This document shows, in pieces, positions 10,779 through 21,585 of a stretch of 61,698 bases of DNA. How positions within the stretch are numbered: the first letter of the stretch is position 1; every line of letters begins with the position of its first letter. Below the pieces are notes generated by a model. It made no database searches. It was not told where the DNA came from and worked only from the letters and a program-made list of their open reading frames with translations. Origin of the DNA: Synergistota bacterium (GTDB lineage Bacteria; Synergistota; GBS-1). Both the position numbers and the translations under genes were made by a program. The stretch lies in assembly GCA_025060595.1 (NCBI GenBank), contig JANXBX010000011.1:1-61698 (forward strand), written 5' to 3'.

Positions 10779-12113
10779 CTATAGTATTGGCAAATATCTC
10801 TTAAGCTCAAATTCGGTTACCTGCGCACGGTATATATCCCACTCCTTTTTCTTATTACGAATAAAACTTTCAAAAACATGATCTCCTAAACACTCTCTGA
10901 CAAGCTCGCTTTTTTCCATAATAGATACAGCCTCACCCAAACTACCCGGCAAGGTCTCTATGCCAAGTCTTTCTCTCTCTTCCTCAGTCAAATCATATAC
11001 ATCGACTTCCACTGGTTTAGGTGGCTCCAGATTCTCCTCAATGCCCTTGAGACCAGCAGCTAACATAACTGAAAAAGCAAGATAAGGATTACATGCTGGA
11101 TCAGGAGCTCTATACTCCACACGAGTAGCATTTTCCATACCCTCAGAAACAGCGGGAACACGTACTAAGGCGGAGCGATTTTTTCTACCCCAACATATAT
11201 ATGCTGGTGCTTCATAACCTGGGATCAAGCGTTTATACGAGTTAACCCACTGACAAGTCACTGCAGTAATTTCTGGAGAGTACTTTAATAATCCAGCAAC
11301 AAAAGCAAGACCTGTCTTAGAAAGTCCGTAATATCCATTAGGATCATAAAAGGCGTTTTTCCCATTCTTAAAAAGCGACTGATGAACATGCATTCCACTA
11401 CCATTAATACCATAGACAGGTTTAGGCATAAATGTAGCATATACATTATTCATAAGAGCAACCTGTTTAACAACCATCTTATGAGTCATAACATTATCTG
11501 CCATGGTTAAAGCATCAGCATATTTTATATCAATTTCATGCTGACTATATGCTACTTCATGATGACTAACTTCAACTGTTATTCCCATCTCATTAAGCAT
11601 AAGAACCGTCTGTCGCCTTAAATCTATTGCTAAGTCAAGAGGCGTTGCGTCAAAATATCCCCCAAAATCTAAAAACTCTGTACCATCAGATGATTTAAAA
11701 TAAAAATACTCCAATTCTGGACCAACATAATAAGTAAAGCCTTTCTCTGCCGCTTTCTTAAGATTGCGTTTCAAAACGTAACGAGGATCTCCTTCGAAGG
11801 GCGTCCCATCAGAATTAAAAACATCACAAAACATCCTTGCCACACCATATTCTTTAGGACGCCATGGAAGAATACAAAATGTTGTAGGATCAGGCATTGC
11901 CAACATATCGCTCTCTTCGATTCGCACAAAGCCTTCTACTGATGAACCATCAAAGCCAACTCCGTACTCTAAAGCCCCAGGAAGCTCCTCAGCCGTTATA
12001 GTAAAGCTTTTTAAGAAACCTAAAATATCCGTAAACCAGAGCTTGATAAACTTAATATTACGCTCCTTAACTACCTTAAGAACATATTCCTTCGCCTCAT
12101 CGTGTTTCTTCAT
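10779..12113 (-). CDS. glnA: Glutamine synthetase, type I (short form)
   Basis: Makes glutamine from glutamate, ammonia and ATP in the cytoplasm. 444 residues with the GSI signatures GVGFDGSSVEGF near 51-62, GPELEYFYF, SHHEVAYSQHEID, NGSGMHVHQSLF, NSYKRLIPGYEAP and NRSALVRVP. The length and the C-terminus fit the GSI-alpha form, and I see no adenylylation-site tyrosine loop, so control by adenylylation is unlikely. The ATG at 12111-12113 follows GGGAGGGG by 5 nt. Four 11-bp direct repeats upstream suggest activation by the OmpR-family regulator two genes away. Confidence 0.97.
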   Translation of the reverse strand: MKKHDEAKEYVLKVVKERNIKFIKLWFTDILGFLKSFTITAEELPGALEYGVGFDGSSVEGFVRIEESDMLAMPDPTTFCILPWRPKEYGVARMFCDVFNSDGTPFEGDPRYVLKRNLKKAAEKGFTYYVGPELEYFYFKSSDGTEFLDFGGYFDATPLDLAIDLRRQTVLMLNEMGITVEVSHHEVAYSQHEIDIKYADALTMADNVMTHKMVVKQVALMNNVYATFMPKPVYGINGSGMHVHQSLFKNGKNAFYDPNGYYGLSKTGLAFVAGLLKYSPEITAVTCQWVNSYKRLIPGYEAPAYICWGRKNRSALVRVPAVSEGMENATRVEYRAPDPACNPYLAFSVMLAAGLKGIEENLEPPKPVEVDVYDLTEEERERLGIETLPGSLGEAVSIMEKSELVRECLGDHVFESFIRNKKKEWDIYRAQVTEFELKRYLPIL

Positions 12114-12148
12114 CACAACCCCTCCCTATTATGCATTAATTTTTATTA

Positions 12149-12203
12149 ACTATACATCAAATTTGTTACAGAAATTTTACGCTTTTATTACAGAACTATT
12201 ACA
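12149..12203 (-). promoter_or_regulatory. glnA promoter with four 11-bp direct repeats (OmpR/PhoB-type box)
   Basis: On the plus strand TTACA, TTACG, TTACA and TTACA start at 12166, 12177, 12188 and 12199: exactly 11 bp apart, four in a row. In the direction of glnA they read as GTAA units ending 12 bp before a TATAGT -10 box (12149-12154). There is no good -35 box, as in PhoB-type activator-dependent promoters. The distal repeat overlaps the nadE stop codon. The same array with the same offset precedes amt. Confidence 0.8.
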
Positions 12204-13947
12204 AACCGAGGCTTTCTTTATAGCGATTCGTTATAGGAAAACGTCTATCTTTACCAAAGGAAAGCTGTGTTATTTTAATACCAGGAGGGGCCTGGCGACG
12301 TTTATACTCACTTCTATCTATCATTCCAACAACTCGTCTTACAATACTAGCATCTAAACCTAAAGATACTATTTCCTCGAGAGAAAGGTTTTTCTCAATA
12401 TATCCTTCGATTATCATATCAAGCAGATCATAAGGAGGCAATGTATCACTATCTTTTTGATCAGGCTTTAGCTCCGCCGATGGGGGTTTTTCAAAAATCC
12501 TTTTAGGAATAATTTCTCTTCCTTCTACCTCATTTCTCCAACTAGCAAGCTTATAAACAAGCATCTTAGGAACATCCTTTATAACAGCAAATCCCCCAGC
12601 CATATCACCATAAAGAGTAGCATAACCACAGGCCATCTCACTTTTATTCCCTGTAGTTAAAACCAACCAACCAAACTTATTTGATAAAGCCATTAAAATA
12701 TTGCCTCTTATCCTCGCTTGAATATTTTCCTCAGTGGCATCAGGTTCAGTGCCACTGAAATGAGACGAGAGAACATCAAGGTAAACTTGAAAGATCGAAT
12801 CAATAGATATAACTCTAAACTCTATCCCCAAATTGAAAGCAAGTCTTTCTGCATCTTCCATACTTGTAAAAGAAGAATAACGCGAAGGCATATAAACTCC
12901 AATTACATTTTGAGCTCCAAGGGCATCAACAGCTATAGTAGCGACAAGGCTAGAATCTATTCCGCCAGAAAGCCCCACCAAAGCTTTTTTAAACCCGTTT
13001 TTCTTAACGTAATCCCGCGTTCCCAAAACTAAGGCTCTGTATACTTCTTCAGGAAAATCCAAAGCCCTTCCCATATAAGTAGAGATAATTGGTTTTTCTT
13101 CCTTAAGGCATCCGTTAATAAAAACAAACTTAACCTCACCATGCATCAACATACTTCGTATTTTTTCTTTACGAAGCCTTGGATCACGAAGTCTATTTTT
13201 AGGCACTTCCTCAAATAATAGGTCAACCACAAGCAGGCACTCTTCAAAACCGTCACCGCGAGCTATAATCTTGCCTTCCCCGTCTAAAACCAAGCTATAT
13301 CCATCAAAAACTAGCTCATCTTGACCACCTACCAAATTTACATAGGCTATAGGAGTAACCATATCAAGCGCTCTTATAGAGAGCATTCTCTCCCTAAGAT
13401 CCCTTTTACCAATCTGATAAGGAGAAGCGCTTATGTTAACTATGAGTTCCGCGCCATTTAACACTTCGGCTATAGCAGGCCCAATAGAATACCAAATATC
13501 CTCACATATAGTTATACCAACTTTTACCCCAAGCAACTCGAAGAGAACAGGAGTATTTCCAGCTTTAAAATACCTTTCCTCATCAAAAACTCCATAATTA
13601 GGAAGAAACATTTTACGATAAATGCATTTAATATCTCCATCGTATAGCAAAGCTGCAGCATTATATATATCTGAATCCACATCTACGAACCCCAATAATA
13701 TAGCAAGGTTTAATCCTTTTGTAAATTCAGCAACCTTCGAAAGCGCTGCTAAATTATCCCTTATAAATGCTGGCTTAAGAAGCAAATCTTCAGGAGGATA
13801 ACCAGTTATAGCCAACTCCGGGAAACACAATAAATCAACTTTTTTAGATTTTCCTTCTTTAATAAATTCACAAATTTTATAAACGTTATGATTGAAATCG
13901 CCCACGATAGAGTTTAGTTGAGCCAAACCTATTCTAAGCTTCCTCAT
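12199..13947 (-). CDS. nadE: NAD+ synthetase, glutamine-dependent
   Basis: Amidates nicotinic acid adenine dinucleotide to NAD+, taking ammonia from glutamine. Two domains in 582 residues. The N-terminal nitrilase-type glutaminase has Glu in CFPELAITGY (E44), Lys in YRKMFLPNYG (K112) and Cys in ITICEDIWYS (C148). The C-terminal synthetase has the ATP loop SGGIDSS (327-333) and TGNKSEMACGYATLYGD. The ATG at 13945-13947 overlaps the end of the response-regulator gene by 14 nt. Its place in an amt-glnB-regulator operon is unusual and suggests coupling of NAD synthesis to nitrogen status. Confidence 0.96.
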   Translation of the reverse strand: MRKLRIGLAQLNSIVGDFNHNVYKICEFIKEGKSKKVDLLCFPELAITGYPPEDLLLKPAFIRDNLAALSKVAEFTKGLNLAILLGFVDVDSDIYNAAALLYDGDIKCIYRKMFLPNYGVFDEERYFKAGNTPVLFELLGVKVGITICEDIWYSIGPAIAEVLNGAELIVNISASPYQIGKRDLRERMLSIRALDMVTPIAYVNLVGGQDELVFDGYSLVLDGEGKIIARGDGFEECLLVVDLLFEEVPKNRLRDPRLRKEKIRSMLMHGEVKFVFINGCLKEEKPIISTYMGRALDFPEEVYRALVLGTRDYVKKNGFKKALVGLSGGIDSSLVATIAVDALGAQNVIGVYMPSRYSSFTSMEDAERLAFNLGIEFRVISIDSIFQVYLDVLSSHFSGTEPDATEENIQARIRGNILMALSNKFGWLVLTTGNKSEMACGYATLYGDMAGGFAVIKDVPKMLVYKLASWRNEVEGREIIPKRIFEKPPSAELKPDQKDSDTLPPYDLLDMIIEGYIEKNLSLEEIVSLGLDASIVRRVVGMIDRSEYKRRQAPPGIKITQLSFGKDRRFPITNRYKESLGL

Positions 13948-14629
13948 CCTCTTCACCTTCGCTAAATTTATATCCTATATTTCTTACAGTCTGGATATAC
14001 CTATGATCATAGTCCCCTAACTTATTCCTCAACCTACTTATATGAGTATCTACTGTCCTATCCCCACCATAGTAATCATATCCCCAAAGTTTACTTAAAA
14101 GCTCCTCTCTCCTAAAAACCTTACCTTTATTTAAGACAAGAAGCCTTAGAAGCTCGTACTCTTTAAAAGTCAATGATATAACCCTTCCCTTAAAAATAAC
14201 CTTGCATCTTTCCTCATCTATATAAAGATCCCCACACCTTATTACTCTTACTCCTTCACTAACTTGTTCTTTAATCCTGGTAAGTCTTAAAATTCTTATC
14301 AAAAGCTCCTCAATAACAAAAGGCTTAACTATGAAATCCGTAAAATAAACTTCCTCAGAAAACCACCTTAGACTATCTTTAGAAACAATAGCCAACAACG
14401 GGATACCCATTTTAGAAATAGCATTTTTATTCTTAACTTCGTTCAACAATCCCCTGTTATAAGAGAAAAGGAGCTCAAAATCACACACCACAACATCAAA
14501 AGGCTCTTCTTTAACCCTATCAATTAACTCATCTATACTATCTAAAATACACACTTCAAATCCCTTTCTAACCAGGTTTTCAGATACTCTCTTACTATCC
14601 TCAGGCTCAACCAGCAAAATAATTTTCAC
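13934..14629 (-). CDS. OmpR/PhoB-family response regulator, orphan, probable nitrogen regulator
   Basis: 231 residues. The receiver domain (1-~118) has the phospho-acceptor Asp at CDF (D50), a Ser at the switch position (VSKDS) and Lys in VKPF. The usual acidic pair reads EPED, with Pro replacing one Asp, and the conserved LP after the Asp is missing, so phosphorylation may be altered. The winged-helix domain (~125-225) is typical: LTFKEYELLRLLVLNKGKV, REELLSKLWGYDYYGGDR, VDTHISRLRNKLG, IQTVRNIGYKF. No histidine kinase is nearby. It lies between glnB and nadE, and 11-bp repeats suited to this family stand before amt and glnA. I infer a role like that of actinobacterial GlnR. Confidence 0.9.
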   Translation of the reverse strand: MKIILLVEPEDSKRVSENLVRKGFEVCILDSIDELIDRVKEEPFDVVVCDFELLFSYNRGLLNEVKNKNAISKMGIPLLAIVSKDSLRWFSEEVYFTDFIVKPFVIEELLIRILRLTRIKEQVSEGVRVIRCGDLYIDEERCKVIFKGRVISLTFKEYELLRLLVLNKGKVFRREELLSKLWGYDYYGGDRTVDTHISRLRNKLGDYDHRYIQTVRNIGYKFSEGEEDEEA

Positions 14630-14654
14630 TTAAACTTACACCCCCACCTTAAAA

Positions 14655-14996
14655 CTAAAGGGCCTTTTCACCCCTCTCACCTGTTCTTATTCTCACAGCA
14701 TCAACAACTTCGTAGATAAAAATCTTTCCATCTCCAATATCTCCAGTATACGCACTCTTTAACAAACAATCTACAATCTCGCTAAGATTCTCATCCGAAC
14801 AAACTATCTCTACCTTGATTTTAGGCAAAAACTCCACCTTAAATTCCCTTCCCCTAAATTGCTCAACCAAACCCTTCTGTCTTCCATGTCCTTCAACTCG
14901 GGTAACACTCATACCAGAGTATCCCTTTAGATTCTTAATGCTTTCTCTTAAACCCTCAAATTTTTCCGGCCTAATAAAAGCTTCTATTTTCTTCAT
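14655..14996 (-). CDS. glnB: Nitrogen regulatory protein PII
   Basis: Small trimeric sensor of 2-oxoglutarate and ATP/ADP, expected to gate the neighbouring Amt channel. 113 residues with the PII pattern GHGRQKG, the T-loop, FLPKIKVEI, TGDIGDGKIF and the C-terminal RIRTGERGEKAL. The T-loop reads EQFRGREF, so the positions of Tyr46 and Tyr51 are both Phe (F47 and F52 here). Uridylylation or tyrosyl modification is therefore impossible and control must be by ligand alone. The ATG at 14994-14996 is 7 nt from GGGGG; an in-frame ATG two codons upstream is too close to it. Cotranscribed with amt. Confidence 0.95.
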   Translation of the reverse strand: MKKIEAFIRPEKFEGLRESIKNLKGYSGMSVTRVEGHGRQKGLVEQFRGREFKVEFLPKIKVEIVCSDENLSEIVDCLLKSAYTGDIGDGKIFIYEVVDAVRIRTGERGEKAL

Positions 14997-15014
14997 ATCC
15001 ATTCCCCCTTCAAA

Positions 15015-16373
15015 TTATACCCTACTATAGAAATCAGGATAAGCAGGAATCCCATGTTCATAAACATCTAACCCCTTAAGCTCCTCTTCTGGTGAAACAC
15101 GAATACCAAAAGCTTTATCCATTAACTTAAACAAAACATATCCCATTCCAAACGCCCACACAAATAACACAACCGCACCTATAAGCTGAGATAACAATTG
15201 TCCCCAACCACCGTAAAGCAAACCAGTAACATAAGGAGGCTCGATAGAGTAAACACCATACGTTCCATCTGCAAAAATACCTACACTCAAAAAACCCCAT
15301 AAACCACATACTCCATGGACACTGACTGCCCCAACAGGATCATCTATTCCCCAATTATCTAAACACTTAACACTCGCATACATAAGAACTCCAGCAATGA
15401 TCCCTATCAAAACAGAAGCCCATCCCTCAACCCAAGCACAAGGAGCAGTTATAGCAACCAAACCTGCAATTACACCATTTAAAGCCATGGTTATATCCCA
15501 CTTCTTAGTTTTTAAATAAGAAACAATCAAAGCAGCTAATCCCCCAGCTGCAGCAGCTAGGTTTGTATTTACAGCTATAACCGAAATTCTTAAATGATGA
15601 GCACTATATGTGCTTCCAGGATTAAAACCAAACCATCCAAACCACAAAATAAAGACTCCTAAAGCAGCTAAAGATACACTATGACCAGGGATGGCTTGAG
15701 GAACGCCATTTTTATACTTACCATACCTTGGACCTAAAACTATAGTTCCAGCTAATCCTACTAATCCACCAAGAGCATGTACCACTCCACTTCCTGCAAA
15801 ATCTAAAACCCCTAAACCAAAAGGAAGTTTGGAGAGCCAACCTCCTCCCCACACCCAGTGTCCATATATCGGATAAATAATGCTGCTAACTACAATTGTA
15901 TAAATAAGATATGCACTAAACTTTAGCCTCTCCGCAACAGCACCAGAAACAATAGTTGCAGCAGTGGCACAAAATACCAACATCCAAAACATGTTAAGAT
16001 ATTTACTCACATCATAATAATCTCCCAACATAAACCAACCCTTTATACCAATCAATCCGTACCAATCATCTCCCATCATCAAAGCATACCCGAAGGCAAA
16101 AAATATTAGAGAACCTAAAACAAAATCAATCAAATTTTTAGCTATAAGATTAGTAACATTTTTTGCCCTACAAAACCCTGCTTCCAACATAGCAAAACCA
16201 GTCTGCATGAACATAACAAGAAAAGCGCATACCAAGATCCAAACGTAATCAACAGGCATAACAGAATTTCCCCTTAAAGTTTCCAAGCCAGTTGGATCCT
16301 TCGCATAAGAAATACACTCCCCAAACACCATATTCATAATTAAGTATACTAAACACTTTTTAAGTATCTTCAC
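15015..16373 (-). CDS. amt: Ammonium transporter (Amt/AmtB)
   Basis: Trimeric inner-membrane ammonium channel. 452 residues with an N-terminal signal-like segment and about 11 helices. Family motifs visible are FMQTGFAMLEAGFCRAKN, GDDWYG, the first pore His in SGVVHALGG, WFGWFGFNPGS and the second pore His in VSVHGVCGLWG. GTG at 16371-16373 follows GGGAGAGGTGAT; a longer frame to 16409 lacks a ribosome site. First gene of amt-glnB-regulator-nadE. Its promoter carries the same four 11-bp repeats as glnA. Confidence 0.96.
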   Translation of the reverse strand: MKILKKCLVYLIMNMVFGECISYAKDPTGLETLRGNSVMPVDYVWILVCAFLVMFMQTGFAMLEAGFCRAKNVTNLIAKNLIDFVLGSLIFFAFGYALMMGDDWYGLIGIKGWFMLGDYYDVSKYLNMFWMLVFCATAATIVSGAVAERLKFSAYLIYTIVVSSIIYPIYGHWVWGGGWLSKLPFGLGVLDFAGSGVVHALGGLVGLAGTIVLGPRYGKYKNGVPQAIPGHSVSLAALGVFILWFGWFGFNPGSTYSAHHLRISVIAVNTNLAAAAGGLAALIVSYLKTKKWDITMALNGVIAGLVAITAPCAWVEGWASVLIGIIAGVLMYASVKCLDNWGIDDPVGAVSVHGVCGLWGFLSVGIFADGTYGVYSIEPPYVTGLLYGGWGQLLSQLIGAVVLFVWAFGMGYVLFKLMDKAFGIRVSPEEELKGLDVYEHGIPAYPDFYSRV

Positions 16374-16408
16374 CCTTATCACCTCTCCCTTCTTAAAACT
16401 TTTCAACA

Positions 16409-16463
16409 TTTATAATAGGGAAAGGTTACACAAAATTTACCCCAACTTTACAAAAACGTTAAA
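16409..16463 (-). promoter_or_regulatory. amt promoter with four 11-bp direct repeats (OmpR/PhoB-type box)
   Basis: Plus-strand TTACA, TTACC, TTACA and TTAAA start at 16426, 16437, 16448 and 16459, exactly 11 bp apart. A TATAAA -10 box (16409-16414) stands 12 bp from the first repeat, the same offset as at glnA. An alternative -10 TATTAT overlaps it. No -35 consensus is present, which suggests activator dependence. Confidence 0.8.
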
Positions 16464-16468
16464 AATAA

Positions 16469-17236
16469 TCAATATGCATAAAGCCTTCCATAAGGACGGT
16501 GCGATTGAGGATAAAGCTTAATAAAAGGCTTATTCGTTATTACATTAAAATCAAGAGAAAAGTACTCACAGAAGTCTTTTAAATGTTTTTCAAACAACTT
16601 AAAATCTTCATCCTTTGCAACAGTTACACCTACTTCTCTACCCCAAATTACATTTTCTACGCTTCCTCGAATAAATATGCTTCCCCCATGCATTCCAGTC
16701 CCAACAAAATCTCCTACCACTCTTCTCTCGTCAGAATCCAACCCTAGAACTACTATTAAGCCTCCAGCCATATATTCTCCTAAAAAATCACCTGTAGATC
16801 CTCCTATTACTATAACAGGAAAATGCTCCTTATAAGCTTTCATATGTATACCTACCCTATACCCAACGTTCCCTTTTACAAATATTCTTCCACCCCTCAT
16901 GGAATAACCTACTATATCACCAGCATCACCGCAAATCACCACCTCTCCGGAATTCATGGTATTACCAACCCCATCTTGAGCATTCCCTAAAACTATAATC
17001 TTAGAACCATCCATAAACGCCGCTAAGTCATTACCCGGGGTGCCTTTTATGAATATGCCTACGTTTTCTTCACTTAAACCACACCCTATATACCTTTGTC
17101 CAATAACATTATCAATAAAAATTTCTTTAACTCCACTCTTTATAGCATCATGAATCATTTCATTCAAAATTCTATAGTGAAGACCATCCGCACGTATTAA
17201 ATAATCTATCTTCTCCATTTTCCCCATAAAGCTCAT
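16469..17236 (-). CDS. Glutamate synthase GXGXG-domain subunit (archaeal-type, GltB C-terminal domain)
   Basis: A 255-residue right-handed beta-helix protein equal to the C-terminal structural domain of bacterial GltB. It shows the repeated glycine pattern GNAQDGVGNTMNSGEVVICGDAGDIVG-type turns, then RGGRIFVKGNVGYRVG and GTGMHGGSIFIRG, and related repeats also occur in formylmethanofuran dehydrogenase subunit C. In the fragmented glutamate synthase this domain is a separate gene. ATGA overlap with the upstream FAD protein gene shows cotranscription. Last gene of the five-gene cluster. The close alternative is a formylmethanofuran-dehydrogenase-like protein, but the neighbours argue for glutamate synthase. 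Confidence 0.9.
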   Translation of the reverse strand: MSFMGKMEKIDYLIRADGLHYRILNEMIHDAIKSGVKEIFIDNVIGQRYIGCGLSEENVGIFIKGTPGNDLAAFMDGSKIIVLGNAQDGVGNTMNSGEVVICGDAGDIVGYSMRGGRIFVKGNVGYRVGIHMKAYKEHFPVIVIGGSTGDFLGEYMAGGLIVVLGLDSDERRVVGDFVGTGMHGGSIFIRGSVENVIWGREVGVTVAKDEDFKLFEKHLKDFCEYFSLDFNVITNKPFIKLYPQSHRPYGRLYAY

Positions 17237-18525
17237 ACTTCAATCACCTCTCCCACAACCATATGTTTTCTATAATTTTTAGGTAGAACTAAAAAACCAA
17301 AATCATCTTTAAGTAATTCCTCTTTAAAAGGAGAAACCTCTAAACCAAACCTCAAAAGTCCAAGAAATATCCCTGCTCTATCTATTCTTCCCAAAAAAAT
17401 ACCCCCTATTACTTTTCCATCTTTTATCACTATCTTACGATATAAAGGTGCTTTACTTTCCTTTCTCACTAAAACTTCGTACCCGTCTAGGTCAACGGGA
17501 TTGGATATTCCAAAGGATATTACGGGAATACCGGCTATTTCAACTGAATTCATCGCAAAAAGCCCATCATATTTGGTTTCCTTTCCAGCCATATTAAATC
17601 CCGCAACCCTACCTTGACGAAAAGCCACTGGCCATAAGGCTAATACCTCACTATTCGAATTTAAAAAACTTTTCGCTTGAACAACGTCTCCAGCTGCATA
17701 TATCTCTTTTATATTGGTTTGCATATAATCATTTACAACGATTCCCCTATCATAATTTATAGGAGTATCTTTTATTAGATCCAAATTGGGCCTTACTCCA
17801 ATAGCGATAACAAGGAGTGCAGTTTCAATCATCTCTCCACTTCTCAAATACACTTTTTTCAAAATCCCATTATCACCAGAAACAGAAACAATCGTATCCT
17901 CCTTCACCACACTACACCCCAAGTTTGCTAAAGCTCTTTCTAATATGCCAGATGCCTCGATGTCCAAAGTGTTCGGAAGAATTCTATCAGCAAGCTCTAT
18001 AATAGTAACCCTCATCCCTCTCGCCACAAGACCTTCTGCTGCCTTAAGTCCTATTAATCCTCCCCCTAAAACCACAGCAGAATTTATGTTATTTAACTTT
18101 ATATAATCAAGCATAGCCTTTGTATCAGAAAGCTTCGTAAAAGTAAAGATCCCATCTTTTATATCATTAATACCACCTATTGTAGGAATTATGGGCTTAC
18201 CACCTGTGGATATAAGCAATTTTTCAAATCTTATAACTGTTTCATCGGATAAAAAAACTAAACGCTCGTTAACATTAAGCTTCTGAGCTTTTTTCCCTAA
18301 AATTAGCTTTACACCATTTTTAGAGTAAAAATCTTTTTCTCTAAAGTAGATATTTCCTTCGTCTATCTTACCTCCAAGATAGTAAGATATCAGTGGTCTA
18401 GAATAGTTATAAACTTTTTCATCGGAAACCACAGTTAAAGAACCATTTTTGTCCTCTTCTCTTATAGATTCGATAGCTGCTATAGCAGCTACCGAATTTC
18501 CAACTATTAAATATTTACTTTCCAT
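17233..18525 (-). CDS. FAD/NAD(P)-dependent oxidoreductase of the glutamate synthase cluster
   Basis: A 430-residue pyridine-nucleotide oxidoreductase. The N-terminal FAD-binding strand-turn reads VGNSVAAIAAIESI, with Asn and Ala in place of the usual glycines. The NAD-binding motif VLGGGLIGLKAAEGL is near 153-167, and the second FAD motif IYAAGDVV near 275. It most resembles NADH oxidase and nitrite-reductase-like flavoproteins. It overlaps the iron-sulfur gene by 11 nt. I infer that it feeds electrons from NAD(P)H through the Fe-S protein to the FMN subunit, replacing GltD. Confidence 0.88.
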   Translation of the reverse strand: MESKYLIVGNSVAAIAAIESIREEDKNGSLTVVSDEKVYNYSRPLISYYLGGKIDEGNIYFREKDFYSKNGVKLILGKKAQKLNVNERLVFLSDETVIRFEKLLISTGGKPIIPTIGGINDIKDGIFTFTKLSDTKAMLDYIKLNNINSAVVLGGGLIGLKAAEGLVARGMRVTIIELADRILPNTLDIEASGILERALANLGCSVVKEDTIVSVSGDNGILKKVYLRSGEMIETALLVIAIGVRPNLDLIKDTPINYDRGIVVNDYMQTNIKEIYAAGDVVQAKSFLNSNSEVLALWPVAFRQGRVAGFNMAGKETKYDGLFAMNSVEIAGIPVISFGISNPVDLDGYEVLVRKESKAPLYRKIVIKDGKVIGGIFLGRIDRAGIFLGLLRFGLEVSPFKEELLKDDFGFLVLPKNYRKHMVVGEVIEV

Positions 18526-19009
18526 CAGTTAAACCCTCCTTCGATACTTTCTTACCCATATAATCAACCAAAACAAGAGCTTCATTAGGACAATGTTCAA
18601 CACACGCAGGAAAACCAGCATCAATACACAAATCGCACTTAGAGGCAACCTTTTTCTCCTCGTGATCCGGCTTTATAACGCCATAAGGGCAAACCATTAT
18701 ACACATCCAACATCCTACGCACTTACTCCTATTATTTAAAATCTTACTAGTCACAGGATCCCTATACATAGCCCCACTAATACAAGCTTCGATGCAAGGA
18801 GCATCTTCACAATGCCTACATTGAAGGGCAAATGAAGTTGGCCCCCTTTCTTCAAAACATATGCCAGAAACAGGTCTGGGTTCCTCTCCTTTAAAAACCT
18901 TTAAAATATTCTTAGACTTAGAGTGCTGAACTACACAATGAACTTCACATAACCTGCACCCCATGCAATACTCCTCTTTCGCAAGAATTCTCTTAAATTT
19001 TTCTACCAT
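18515..19009 (-). CDS. 4Fe-4S ferredoxin-type electron-transfer subunit
   Basis: A 164-residue protein with cysteines for four 4Fe-4S clusters, in the style of HycB/CooF or DMSO reductase B. The motifs are CMGCRLCEVHC, CRHCEDAPCIEAC, CVGCWMCIMVCPYG and CDLCIDAGFPACVEHCP. ATG at 19007-19009 follows GGGAG and overlaps the FMN subunit gene; a longer frame to 19024 is less likely. It stands between the FMN subunit and the FAD protein, so it probably carries electrons between them. Confidence 0.92.
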   Translation of the reverse strand: MVEKFKRILAKEEYCMGCRLCEVHCVVQHSKSKNILKVFKGEEPRPVSGICFEERGPTSFALQCRHCEDAPCIEACISGAMYRDPVTSKILNNRSKCVGCWMCIMVCPYGVIKPDHEEKKVASKCDLCIDAGFPACVEHCPNEALVLVDYMGKKVSKEGLTDGK

Positions 19010-20490
19010 TGCTCTCCCACGCATTTTACTCCTAATAACCCCCTTTCGGTTTCCGTCAAACCAACAGCCCTCAACTGCTCCCTATTCCCCCTTAGGGACT
19101 CTATAGCATTTATTCCCATTCCACCCAACATTTCTTTGATTTCCAAAGACCAAGCTCTCAAAAGGTTATAAGCCCTCTTGGCACCTATATCGGGATTTAA
19201 TCTCTTTGTGAGATACGGATCCTGAGTAGCTATTCCCCAATTACACCTACCGGTGTAACACTTCTGACACAAGTGACACCCTAAAGCGATCAAAGCTGCA
19301 GTAGCTATATAAACAGCATCAGCACCTAATGCTATAGCTTTTATAACATCAGCTGAACTTCTAAACCCCCCAGCAGCTATTATGCTTGCACAATGCCTTA
19401 TACCTTCCTCTCTAAGTCTTTGATCTACAACAGCTATAGCCATCTCTATAGGTATACCAACGTTGTCCCTTATAACTGTAGGAGCCGCTCCTGTACCACC
19501 TCTTATACCGTCTATAACTACAAAATCCGCACCTGCTCTTACTATTCCAGAAGCAATAGCTGCAACATTATGAACTGCTGCTATCTTAACCCCAACAGGT
19601 TTTTTATACCTCGTAGCCTCTTTAAGAGCGAAAATCAGCTGTCGTAAATCTTCTATAGAGTAAATATCATGGTGTGGTGCAGGACTAATAGCATCACTTC
19701 CTACAGGAATCATCCTCGTCTTTGACACTTCCTCACTTACTTTCTCTCCCGGAAGATGTCCACCAATACCAGGTTTAGCCCCCTGACCTATTTTTATCTC
19801 TATAGCAGCACCTACTTCTAGATACTCTTTGTTAACTCCGAAACGCCCAGAAGCAACCTGAACTATAGCTCTATCAGCATAAGGTTTAAGCTCTGAATGT
19901 AATCCCCCTTCACCAGTGTTCCAATACGTTCCGAAATTACAGGCAGCCTTAGCCAAAGACTTACAAGCATTTAAAGAGATAGAACCATAACTCATTGCAG
20001 AAAACATTATAGGTACCTCAAGCTCAAGCTGAGGTGGAATAGAAGACATAAATCTGTCAGGCTTACGTCCTAAAAAGGTTTTAAGCTCCATAGGTTCTCT
20101 AATTGGATCAATAGAAGGGTTAGTAACCTGTGCCGCATTTAAGACAAGATGCCTAAAGTAATCTCTATAAGGTCTATCGCAGCCCATCCCACTTAACAAA
20201 ATACCACCCGTTTCAGCCTGTTTTATAAGATCATAAACATCCCTATCTGACCAGTGGAAATTACTCCTAATTCTCAACTGATTTCCAACAATAGCTATCG
20301 CACTCGTCGGACAAAGATCCTCACAAAAATGACAACCAACACACTTAGTGCTATCAGAGATAACCAGATTCATCTCTGGATAATAAGAGTGAACATCAAA
20401 AGCGCACATCCTCACACAAACTTGACAATGTATACATTTACTCTCGTCCCTCTCTACATTAAATTCAGACCTATACCTTGCCTTGGCCAT
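19003..20490 (-). CDS. Glutamate synthase FMN/Fe-S catalytic subunit (archaeal type)
   Basis: Reduces 2-oxoglutarate plus ammonia to glutamate. 495 residues. Two N-terminal 4Fe-4S motifs (CIHCQVCVRMC and CVGCHFCEDLCP, within residues ~17-60) are followed by the FMN barrel of GltB: SYGSISLNA, NTGEGG, KIGQGAKPGIGGHLPG, SPAPHHDIYSIEDL, VDGIRGGTGAAP (here IDGIRGGTGAAP) and GADAVYIATAALIALGC. The 3Fe-4S site CHLCQKCYTGRCNWGIATQ closes the domain. This ferredoxin-fused, glutaminase-free layout is the archaeal/Thermotoga form. It lies 3 nt after the amidotransferase gene, and the two must work together. Confidence 0.95.
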   Translation of the reverse strand: MAKARYRSEFNVERDESKCIHCQVCVRMCAFDVHSYYPEMNLVISDSTKCVGCHFCEDLCPTSAIAIVGNQLRIRSNFHWSDRDVYDLIKQAETGGILLSGMGCDRPYRDYFRHLVLNAAQVTNPSIDPIREPMELKTFLGRKPDRFMSSIPPQLELEVPIMFSAMSYGSISLNACKSLAKAACNFGTYWNTGEGGLHSELKPYADRAIVQVASGRFGVNKEYLEVGAAIEIKIGQGAKPGIGGHLPGEKVSEEVSKTRMIPVGSDAISPAPHHDIYSIEDLRQLIFALKEATRYKKPVGVKIAAVHNVAAIASGIVRAGADFVVIDGIRGGTGAAPTVIRDNVGIPIEMAIAVVDQRLREEGIRHCASIIAAGGFRSSADVIKAIALGADAVYIATAALIALGCHLCQKCYTGRCNWGIATQDPYLTKRLNPDIGAKRAYNLLRAWSLEIKEMLGGMGINAIESLRGNREQLRAVGLTETERGLLGVKCVGEQW

Positions 20491-20493
20491 TTT

Positions 20494-21585
20494 TTATCCC
20501 TCCACCTTACCAATAACAGGCTCACCAGCCTTTGGCATCCAAACTTTTTCTAGACCATTAGAAATCGCTCGTATAGCTGACTCTTCAGAAGCTATATATA
20601 AAAAATCTCCTCCTTTAGCAGCTACAAGAGGCCTTAACTTAGTCCTATCATTTAAACCAATCATATAATGTGAATTAGCAATTACTACAGCAAAAGGTCC
20701 ATTAACAAGAGCAGGGCCATAGATTATTCTCAATAATTTCAGAAACTCCTTTTTACTTTCATCTTCTATTTTTTCTATCTGAGACCAGAAAGGGGCTGAA
20801 AGAATATTTGCTACAACATCAAAAGAAAGACCATGTTTACGAACTAACAAATCAAACAAATAGACTAAAACTTCCGTATCAGTCGAGAAAGTACAATAGT
20901 ATCCAAAACCCTCTAAGTACCTCTTATTCACTCCATAGGATGATATTTCTCCATTATGAACTAAAGCCCAATCAAGTATTCCAAATGGATGCGCTCCTCC
21001 CCACCAACCAGGCGTGTTTGTCGGAAACCTATTGTGAGCTATCCATAAATAGCCTCTATATTCCGGAATCTTATAAAACTCTCCCATTACTTCAGGGTCT
21101 CCAACTCCTTTAAAAATACCCATGTTCTTACCAGAAGAAAATATACAAGCCCCGTCTATTTTTCTATTTATCTTCATGACACTGTGAACTATATCTTCTT
21201 CCACACTTTCACTTTCTCTAAAACTAATAAAATATCTCCAGAGTAAAGGAACATTCTCAACAACATTTACCTTCTTAACAGATATAGGTTCATGATAAAC
21301 AATAATAAAGTTGCTCTTTAAATAATCCTCAACAACACACTTAGCCGATTCTGTATAATACATTATATGAAAGCACCAATAATCCTTAAACTCGGGATAA
21401 ATTCCATAACCCGCAAAACCACTGCCTAATCCATTTCCACGCTCACGCATGCAACAAATAGAATTTAAAATAAGTTCCCCCGAAAAAGATTCACCCTTTT
21501 GATTCATTACCCCTACAACTCCACAACCTGATGGATTTCTCAACTCTCGGTCAAAAAACAACCTTTTAAAATCAACTCCGCTCAT
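20494..21585 (-). CDS. Glutamate synthase glutamine amidotransferase subunit (class II)
   Basis: Releases ammonia from glutamine for the FMN subunit. An Ntn-hydrolase of 363 residues. The nucleophile is Cys21 in PSGCGVVGVM, so 20 residues must be removed by self-processing, as in GltB-type enzymes. Further motifs are HNRFPTNTPGWWGGAHPFG, LVHNGEISSYG, FSTDTEVLVYL and GPFAVVIA. The ATG is 8 nt after GGAGGAG. First gene of the five-gene cluster under its own promoter. Confidence 0.93.
   Translation of the reverse strand: MSGVDFKRLFFDRELRNPSGCGVVGVMNQKGESFSGELILNSICCMRERGNGLGSGFAGYGIYPEFKDYWCFHIMYYTESAKCVVEDYLKSNFIIVYHEPISVKKVNVVENVPLLWRYFISFRESESVEEDIVHSVMKINRKIDGACIFSSGKNMGIFKGVGDPEVMGEFYKIPEYRGYLWIAHNRFPTNTPGWWGGAHPFGILDWALVHNGEISSYGVNKRYLEGFGYYCTFSTDTEVLVYLFDLLVRKHGLSFDVVANILSAPFWSQIEKIEDESKKEFLKLLRIIYGPALVNGPFAVVIANSHYMIGLNDRTKLRPLVAAKGGDFLYIASEESAIRAISNGLEKVWMPKAGEPVIGKVEG

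Follow-up and report, generated by a model that had tools for sequence, protein, structure and literature searches.

GlnR of Actinobacteria (PDB 8hig, 8hih, 8hml) is an orphan regulator of the OmpR family with a non-functional phosphorylation pocket; its Asp-50 is not phosphorylated (PMC10704036). It recognizes gTnAc-n6-GaAAc boxes and, on a promoter with four sites, binds as four protomers arranged head to tail with RNA polymerase (PMC10704036); the A residues of the motif and the spacing are critical (PMC3662644). The Pho boxes of PhoB/PhoP are also head-to-tail 11-bp words that take the place of the -35 element, with the same offset from the -10 box as in the promoters described here, but they consist of T-type words (TTAA), precede phosphate genes, and belong to regulators with a partner kinase and a complete receiver pocket. 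The GlnR of Bacillota, a MerR-family protein with a palindromic site, represents an unrelated protein family and has only its name and target genes in common with the regulator analyzed in this work.

The window, i.e. the entire analyzed stretch of 61,698 nucleotides from a Synergistota bacterium, contains a nitrogen locus (Table 1) whose regulator resembles actinobacterial GlnR in being an orphan OmpR-family protein with a non-functional phosphorylation pocket, in belonging to the same clade and in the GGxRTVD recognition helix. The two systems also share four 5-nt sites at a pitch of 11 bp (GTnAC/GaAAC in Actinobacteria) and the targets amt-glnB/glnK and glnA. Unlike its actinobacterial counterpart, the regulator is found outside Actinobacteria and is encoded inside the amt operon, the words consist of GTAA plus A, C or T, and they occur at two promoters only in the genome. 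A single OmpR-family regulator gene is present between the glnA and amt promoters, and no kinase gene was found beside it in this interval, which makes the regulator an orphan. The listed start of the amt ORF coincides with the -10 hexamer; translation more probably starts at GTG 16373, which follows a purine-rich stretch, as inferred from sequence alone. PII proteins have a T-loop motif with Tyr positions that are modified; in the GlnB encoded here (window 14655-15002) the loop reads QFRGREFKVEF, with Phe at both usual Tyr positions, therefore uridylylation or adenylylation is not expected there. The split glutamate synthase genes are syntenic with an island of Chloroflexota; beyond the GXGXG part, their names are assigned by similarity. 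A second glnA of the same genome (G000; L171 2047-3369, contig C20) is 67% identical and lacks the operator. At 12199-12202 of the window, the nadE stop codon and the outermost glnA operator word overlap.

Table 1. Features of the nitrogen locus (window coordinates).
Feature	Position	Strand	Remarks
glnA, glutamine synthetase (operator-bearing paralogue)	10779..12116	-	PF00120, PF03951; probable start ATG 12113
glnA -10 hexamer TATAGT	12149..12154	-	10 nt past last word; -35 absent
glnA operator	12165..12202	-	four GTAA words, 11-bp pitch (GTAAT/GTAAT/GTAAA/GTAAC); conserved in G001 (L033) and G003 (L057)
nadE, glutamine-dependent NAD synthetase, last gene of the amt operon	12199..13956	-	3' end reaches glnA operator
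GlnR-type orphan OmpR-family regulator, degenerate receiver	13934..14629	-	
glnB, PII signal protein	14655..15002	-	T-loop Tyr positions read Phe
amt, ammonium transporter	15015..16409	-	PF00909; probable start GTG near 16373
amt operon -10 hexamer TATAAA	16409..16414	-	10 nt past last word
amt operator	16425..16462	-	four words, 11-bp pitch (TTAAC/GTAAA/GTAAA/GTAAC); conserved in G001 (L033 2767)
split glutamate synthase genes	16469..21585	-	GXGXG part, NAD(P)H oxidoreductase-like, ferredoxin-like, GltS, glutaminase part

On the minus strand, the region upstream of glnA (12202 to 12149) reads GTAAT-n6-GTAAT-n6-GTAAA-n6-GTAAC-n10-TATAGT, i.e. the words GTAATAGTTCT GTAATAAAAGC GTAAAATTTCT GTAACAAATTTGATG followed by TATAGT, and the region upstream of amt (16462 to 16409) reads TTAAC-n6-GTAAA-n6-GTAAA-n6-GTAAC-n10-TATAAA, i.e. 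TTAACGTTTTT GTAAAGTTGGG GTAAATTTTGT GTAACCTTTCCCTAT followed by TATAAA. Seven of the eight words start with G, the exception being the outermost amt word, TTAA. The last GTAAC is separated from the -10 hexamer by exactly 10 nt in both promoters, and no -35 element could be identified in either (best match at 16-18 bp spacing: 1/6 in both). In the 1.86-Mb genome the array pattern, with up to 2 mismatches allowed, matches only twice, before glnA and before amt, while a reversed control pattern yields 0 matches at the same threshold. A degenerate pattern gave 21 matches in 372 kb of own and related loci, all just upstream of amt or glnA, versus 0 matches in 30 shuffles of those 372 kb. The initial annotation had reported eight words at 11-bp pitch at these positions, the same array-to-(-10) offset in both promoters without a -35 element, and between them a lone OmpR-family regulator with no kinase and an atypical phosphorylation pocket; all of this held, except that the amt word at 16459 is TTAA and not TTAC. 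It had also argued that the matching offset makes chance unlikely: chance is ruled out by the pattern scans and shuffles, but the offset is shared by T-type (Pho-box-like) arrays, hence on its own it is not specific to GlnR.

The regulator and its family profile both have their best PDB sequence matches in the GlnR proteins of Saccharopolyspora erythraea and M. tuberculosis. In a maximum-likelihood tree of full-length sequences, the three proteins from the family of the source bacterium, 19 from Chloroflexota and both solved GlnR form one clade (100/99), separate from 52 other regulators, and the DNA-binding domain alone, with the protein of the Chloroflexota genome G165 added, gave the same clade (98/95). 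Both trees thus place the regulator with GlnR and not with PhoB, RegX3 or WalR-like proteins; GlnR forms a long branch in them, its two rows having been read from alignments (residues 32/41-219). The string [FY][FY]GGxRTVD is found in 25/25 clade members versus 0/52 of the other regulators. Raw sequence identity does not settle the family: the DNA-binding domain is 49% identical to that of GlnR and 50-52% identical to those of some WalR-like regulators. Relatives from Thermotogota and Clostridia (35-39% identity) were rejected as members, as they fall into another clade and exhibit WGYDYYGD instead of GG; no nitrogen genes were found within the stretches examined around them.

Across 22 members, the Thr/Ser of the receiver pocket is lost in 22/22, the Asp is kept in 16 and the Lys in 11, and no more than one residue of the acid pair is left. 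The regulator from the window keeps both Asp and Lys, of which the Asp is lost in some relatives, and its Pfam receiver score is below the cut-off. It therefore shows the absence of a working phosphorylation pocket that is typical of GlnR and fails to show the complete set of acid pair, Asp, Thr/Ser, Lys and partner kinase that characterizes PhoB/PhoP. With the pocket degenerate in all members, control by phosphorylation is unlikely. The dimer contacts of actinobacterial GlnR (Asp-50/Arg-52/Thr-9) are not reproduced: Arg-52, which pairs with Asp-50, is not kept, the residue two positions after the Asp being Glu here and variable in relatives. These contacts have been described only for actinobacterial GlnR (PMC10704036), therefore we do not take them as defining the wider clade, and we refer to the protein as a "GlnR-type clade member" and not as an "actinobacterial GlnR". 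NCBIfam provides no specific name for it, all matches being below the cut-off. The AlphaFold model (pLDDT 84, pTM 0.53) combines a receiver-like fold with a winged helix, and the fold search reported only the OmpR/PhoB fold, with low full-length TM scores that probably reflect the orientation of the domains.

Among 61 genomes of the phylum, array sites are found only in the three that possess an orthologue of the regulator (5 sites, 5/5 before amt or glnA). The two others besides that of the window, G001 and G003, are of the same family. In G001 (the MAG "bacterium 42_11", L033; 42_11 is presumably a lineage near Synergistota) the gene order is identical and both arrays are present, while in G003 the regulator gene directly precedes glnA, with the array between them. 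The spacers have diverged between species and the words and the -10 offset are kept. G002, from the same family, has neither a regulator orthologue nor an array; no array was found at the second glnA of G000 and G003 or at the sole glnA of G002, and control patterns gave 0 matches in the family comparison. Among 15 genomes tested, amt is present only in the genus of the window, and its product is up to 75% identical to Amt of Chloroflexota, from which we infer that transfer of the island is plausible.

In Chloroflexota, an orthologue of the regulator is present in 19/201 genomes (E<=1e-42), one match being located in a record named Dehalococcoidia (L034). Most regulator-positive genomes contain the same island, composed of the ferredoxin-like protein, the oxidoreductase, the glutaminase part, GltS, the GXGXG part, the regulator, Amt, GlnB, GlnA and often NadE. 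Arrays with the same 10-nt offset are found before amt, and before glnA in three, and they precede amt even where it is unlinked from the regulator (L152, L153, L167, L216). The geometry pattern was detected in 19/19 regulator-positive versus 18/182 other genomes (Fisher 9e-17); this count makes no distinction between G-words and T-words, and the P-value is inflated by the relatedness of the genomes. Of these 18, G165 turns out to encode a divergent member of the clade and to carry an array before amt; for the other regulator-negative matches no amt or glnA was found downstream in the stretches checked, and several lie before phosphate-type genes. In G061 the regulator is present and only T-type matches were found, with no nitrogen-type site. 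G097 has a G-word-rich array before nifH, followed by two PII-like genes (L220 8152), and G115 a mixed array before nifB (L218 4985), so that nitrogen-type sites in Chloroflexota precede amt, glnA, nifH and nifB. In G080, a match with few G-words falls within a glnA-like gene, and we consider it a chance occurrence. The scan of related genomes that had been proposed as a check thus revealed arrays that co-occur with regulator orthologues and precede nitrogen genes, both in the two same-family genomes and in Chloroflexota.

The genome of the window encodes two DNA-binding regulators of the OmpR family, that of the nitrogen locus and a PhoB-like one (L002). The best match of the latter is the PhoB model (233 bits, below the cut-off of 296); it has the complete set of acid pair, Asp, Thr/Ser and Lys, and a HisKA kinase is encoded adjacent to it. 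An imperfect array (2 mismatches) of TTAA words with similar pitch precedes an alkaline phosphatase gene in the same genome (C2:147944; L177 1501-1587) and is likely a Pho box of the PhoB-like regulator. T-type arrays of Chloroflexota, with the same 11-bp geometry and -10 offset, are found before pstS-like genes, polyphosphate kinase (in G097, L219 2325) and methylglyoxal synthase (in three genomes: L151, L154, L155), the last of which hints that the methylglyoxal bypass could be under phosphate control. The shared geometry is therefore common to PhoB-type activators, and nitrogen arrays differ from phosphate arrays in word type (G or T) and in target genes. This is also a weak point of our interpretation, as only word sequence and location favor a GlnR-type binder.

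We propose that the regulator is a GlnR-type activator of amt-glnB-regulator-nadE and of glnA outside Actinobacteria, which we consider very likely (probability ~0.87). The direct activation of these genes claimed in the initial annotation is supported but remains an inference, in the absence of data on binding or expression. The analysis shows the geometry of the sites, their conservation, their specificity across the genome and their co-occurrence with the regulator, as well as the clade to which the regulator belongs; at the sequence level the sites agree with the published consensus gTnAc-n6-GaAAc and with the promoter complex of four sites and four protomers (PMC10704036). That the regulator binds the sites, activates transcription and controls its own gene, and that its signal is independent of phosphorylation, is inferred. 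By analogy with GlnR, four copies of the regulator would line up head to tail on the 11-bp words of each array under nitrogen shortage and, by contacting RNA polymerase at the -35 position, attract the enzyme in place of the absent element; one promoter would drive amt-glnB-regulator-nadE and the other glnA. The amt operon contains the regulator gene in G000 and G001, therefore positive feedback on its own synthesis is expected there; in Chloroflexota the regulator gene is usually upstream of the array, therefore such feedback is not expected. The input signal would not involve receiver phosphorylation; GlnB is encoded next to the regulator.

Three other explanations may be considered. The arrays could be Pho boxes bound by the PhoB-like regulator, which the genome encodes together with an adjacent histidine kinase; Pho-type arrays share the pitch and the -10 offset, and competition between PhoP and GlnR at glnA and amtB is known from Streptomyces (PMC10704036). 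However, TTAA-word arrays precede phosphate genes, which speaks against binding by PhoB in the present case, where 7/8 words have an initial G and nitrogen genes follow, and G002 possesses a PhoB-like orthologue (L014) but lacks the nitrogen regulator and the arrays; we regard this explanation as very improbable. Alternatively, the regulator could bind the arrays but repress or mainly tune amt and glnA, as GlnR of M. smegmatis is both activator and repressor (PMC3662644). Against this, neither promoter has a -35 element, the array ends 10 nt before the -10 hexamer, which is the position of a class II activator, and the arrangement is the same before nifH and nifB, so that this possibility also appears remote. 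Finally, that the arrays are chance repeats of an AT-rich region is practically excluded by the absence of matches in shuffles (0 vs 21) and controls, by the location of 2/2 genome and 5/5 family matches before amt or glnA, and by the retention of words and offset between species with diverged spacers.

GlnR itself is known, and is described as actinobacterial in the literature searched; what is new is the wider phylum range of this kind of regulator. The initial claim that such a circuit is undescribed outside Actinobacteria held within the open-access literature, in which we found no published description, including for Chloroflexi/Chloroflexota/Dehalococcoides. A bolder reading, towards which we lean only slightly, is that control of the GlnR type represents a phosphorylation-independent nitrogen system of at least three phyla, either old or widely transferred, with Actinobacteria as one branch, and that in Dehalococcoidia, the Chloroflexota group of the dechlorinating Dehalococcoides, it controls not only ammonium assimilation but also nitrogen fixation (nifH, nifB). 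The comparison offers a simple sequence rule, according to which, at the same geometry, G-words indicate nitrogen and T-words phosphate. If our interpretation is correct, a minimal two-promoter circuit would allow the unknown input signal of GlnR to be tested, and a defined nitrogen regulator, together with its predicted sites, would be known for small anaerobes of Chloroflexota and of the little-known 42_11 lineage.
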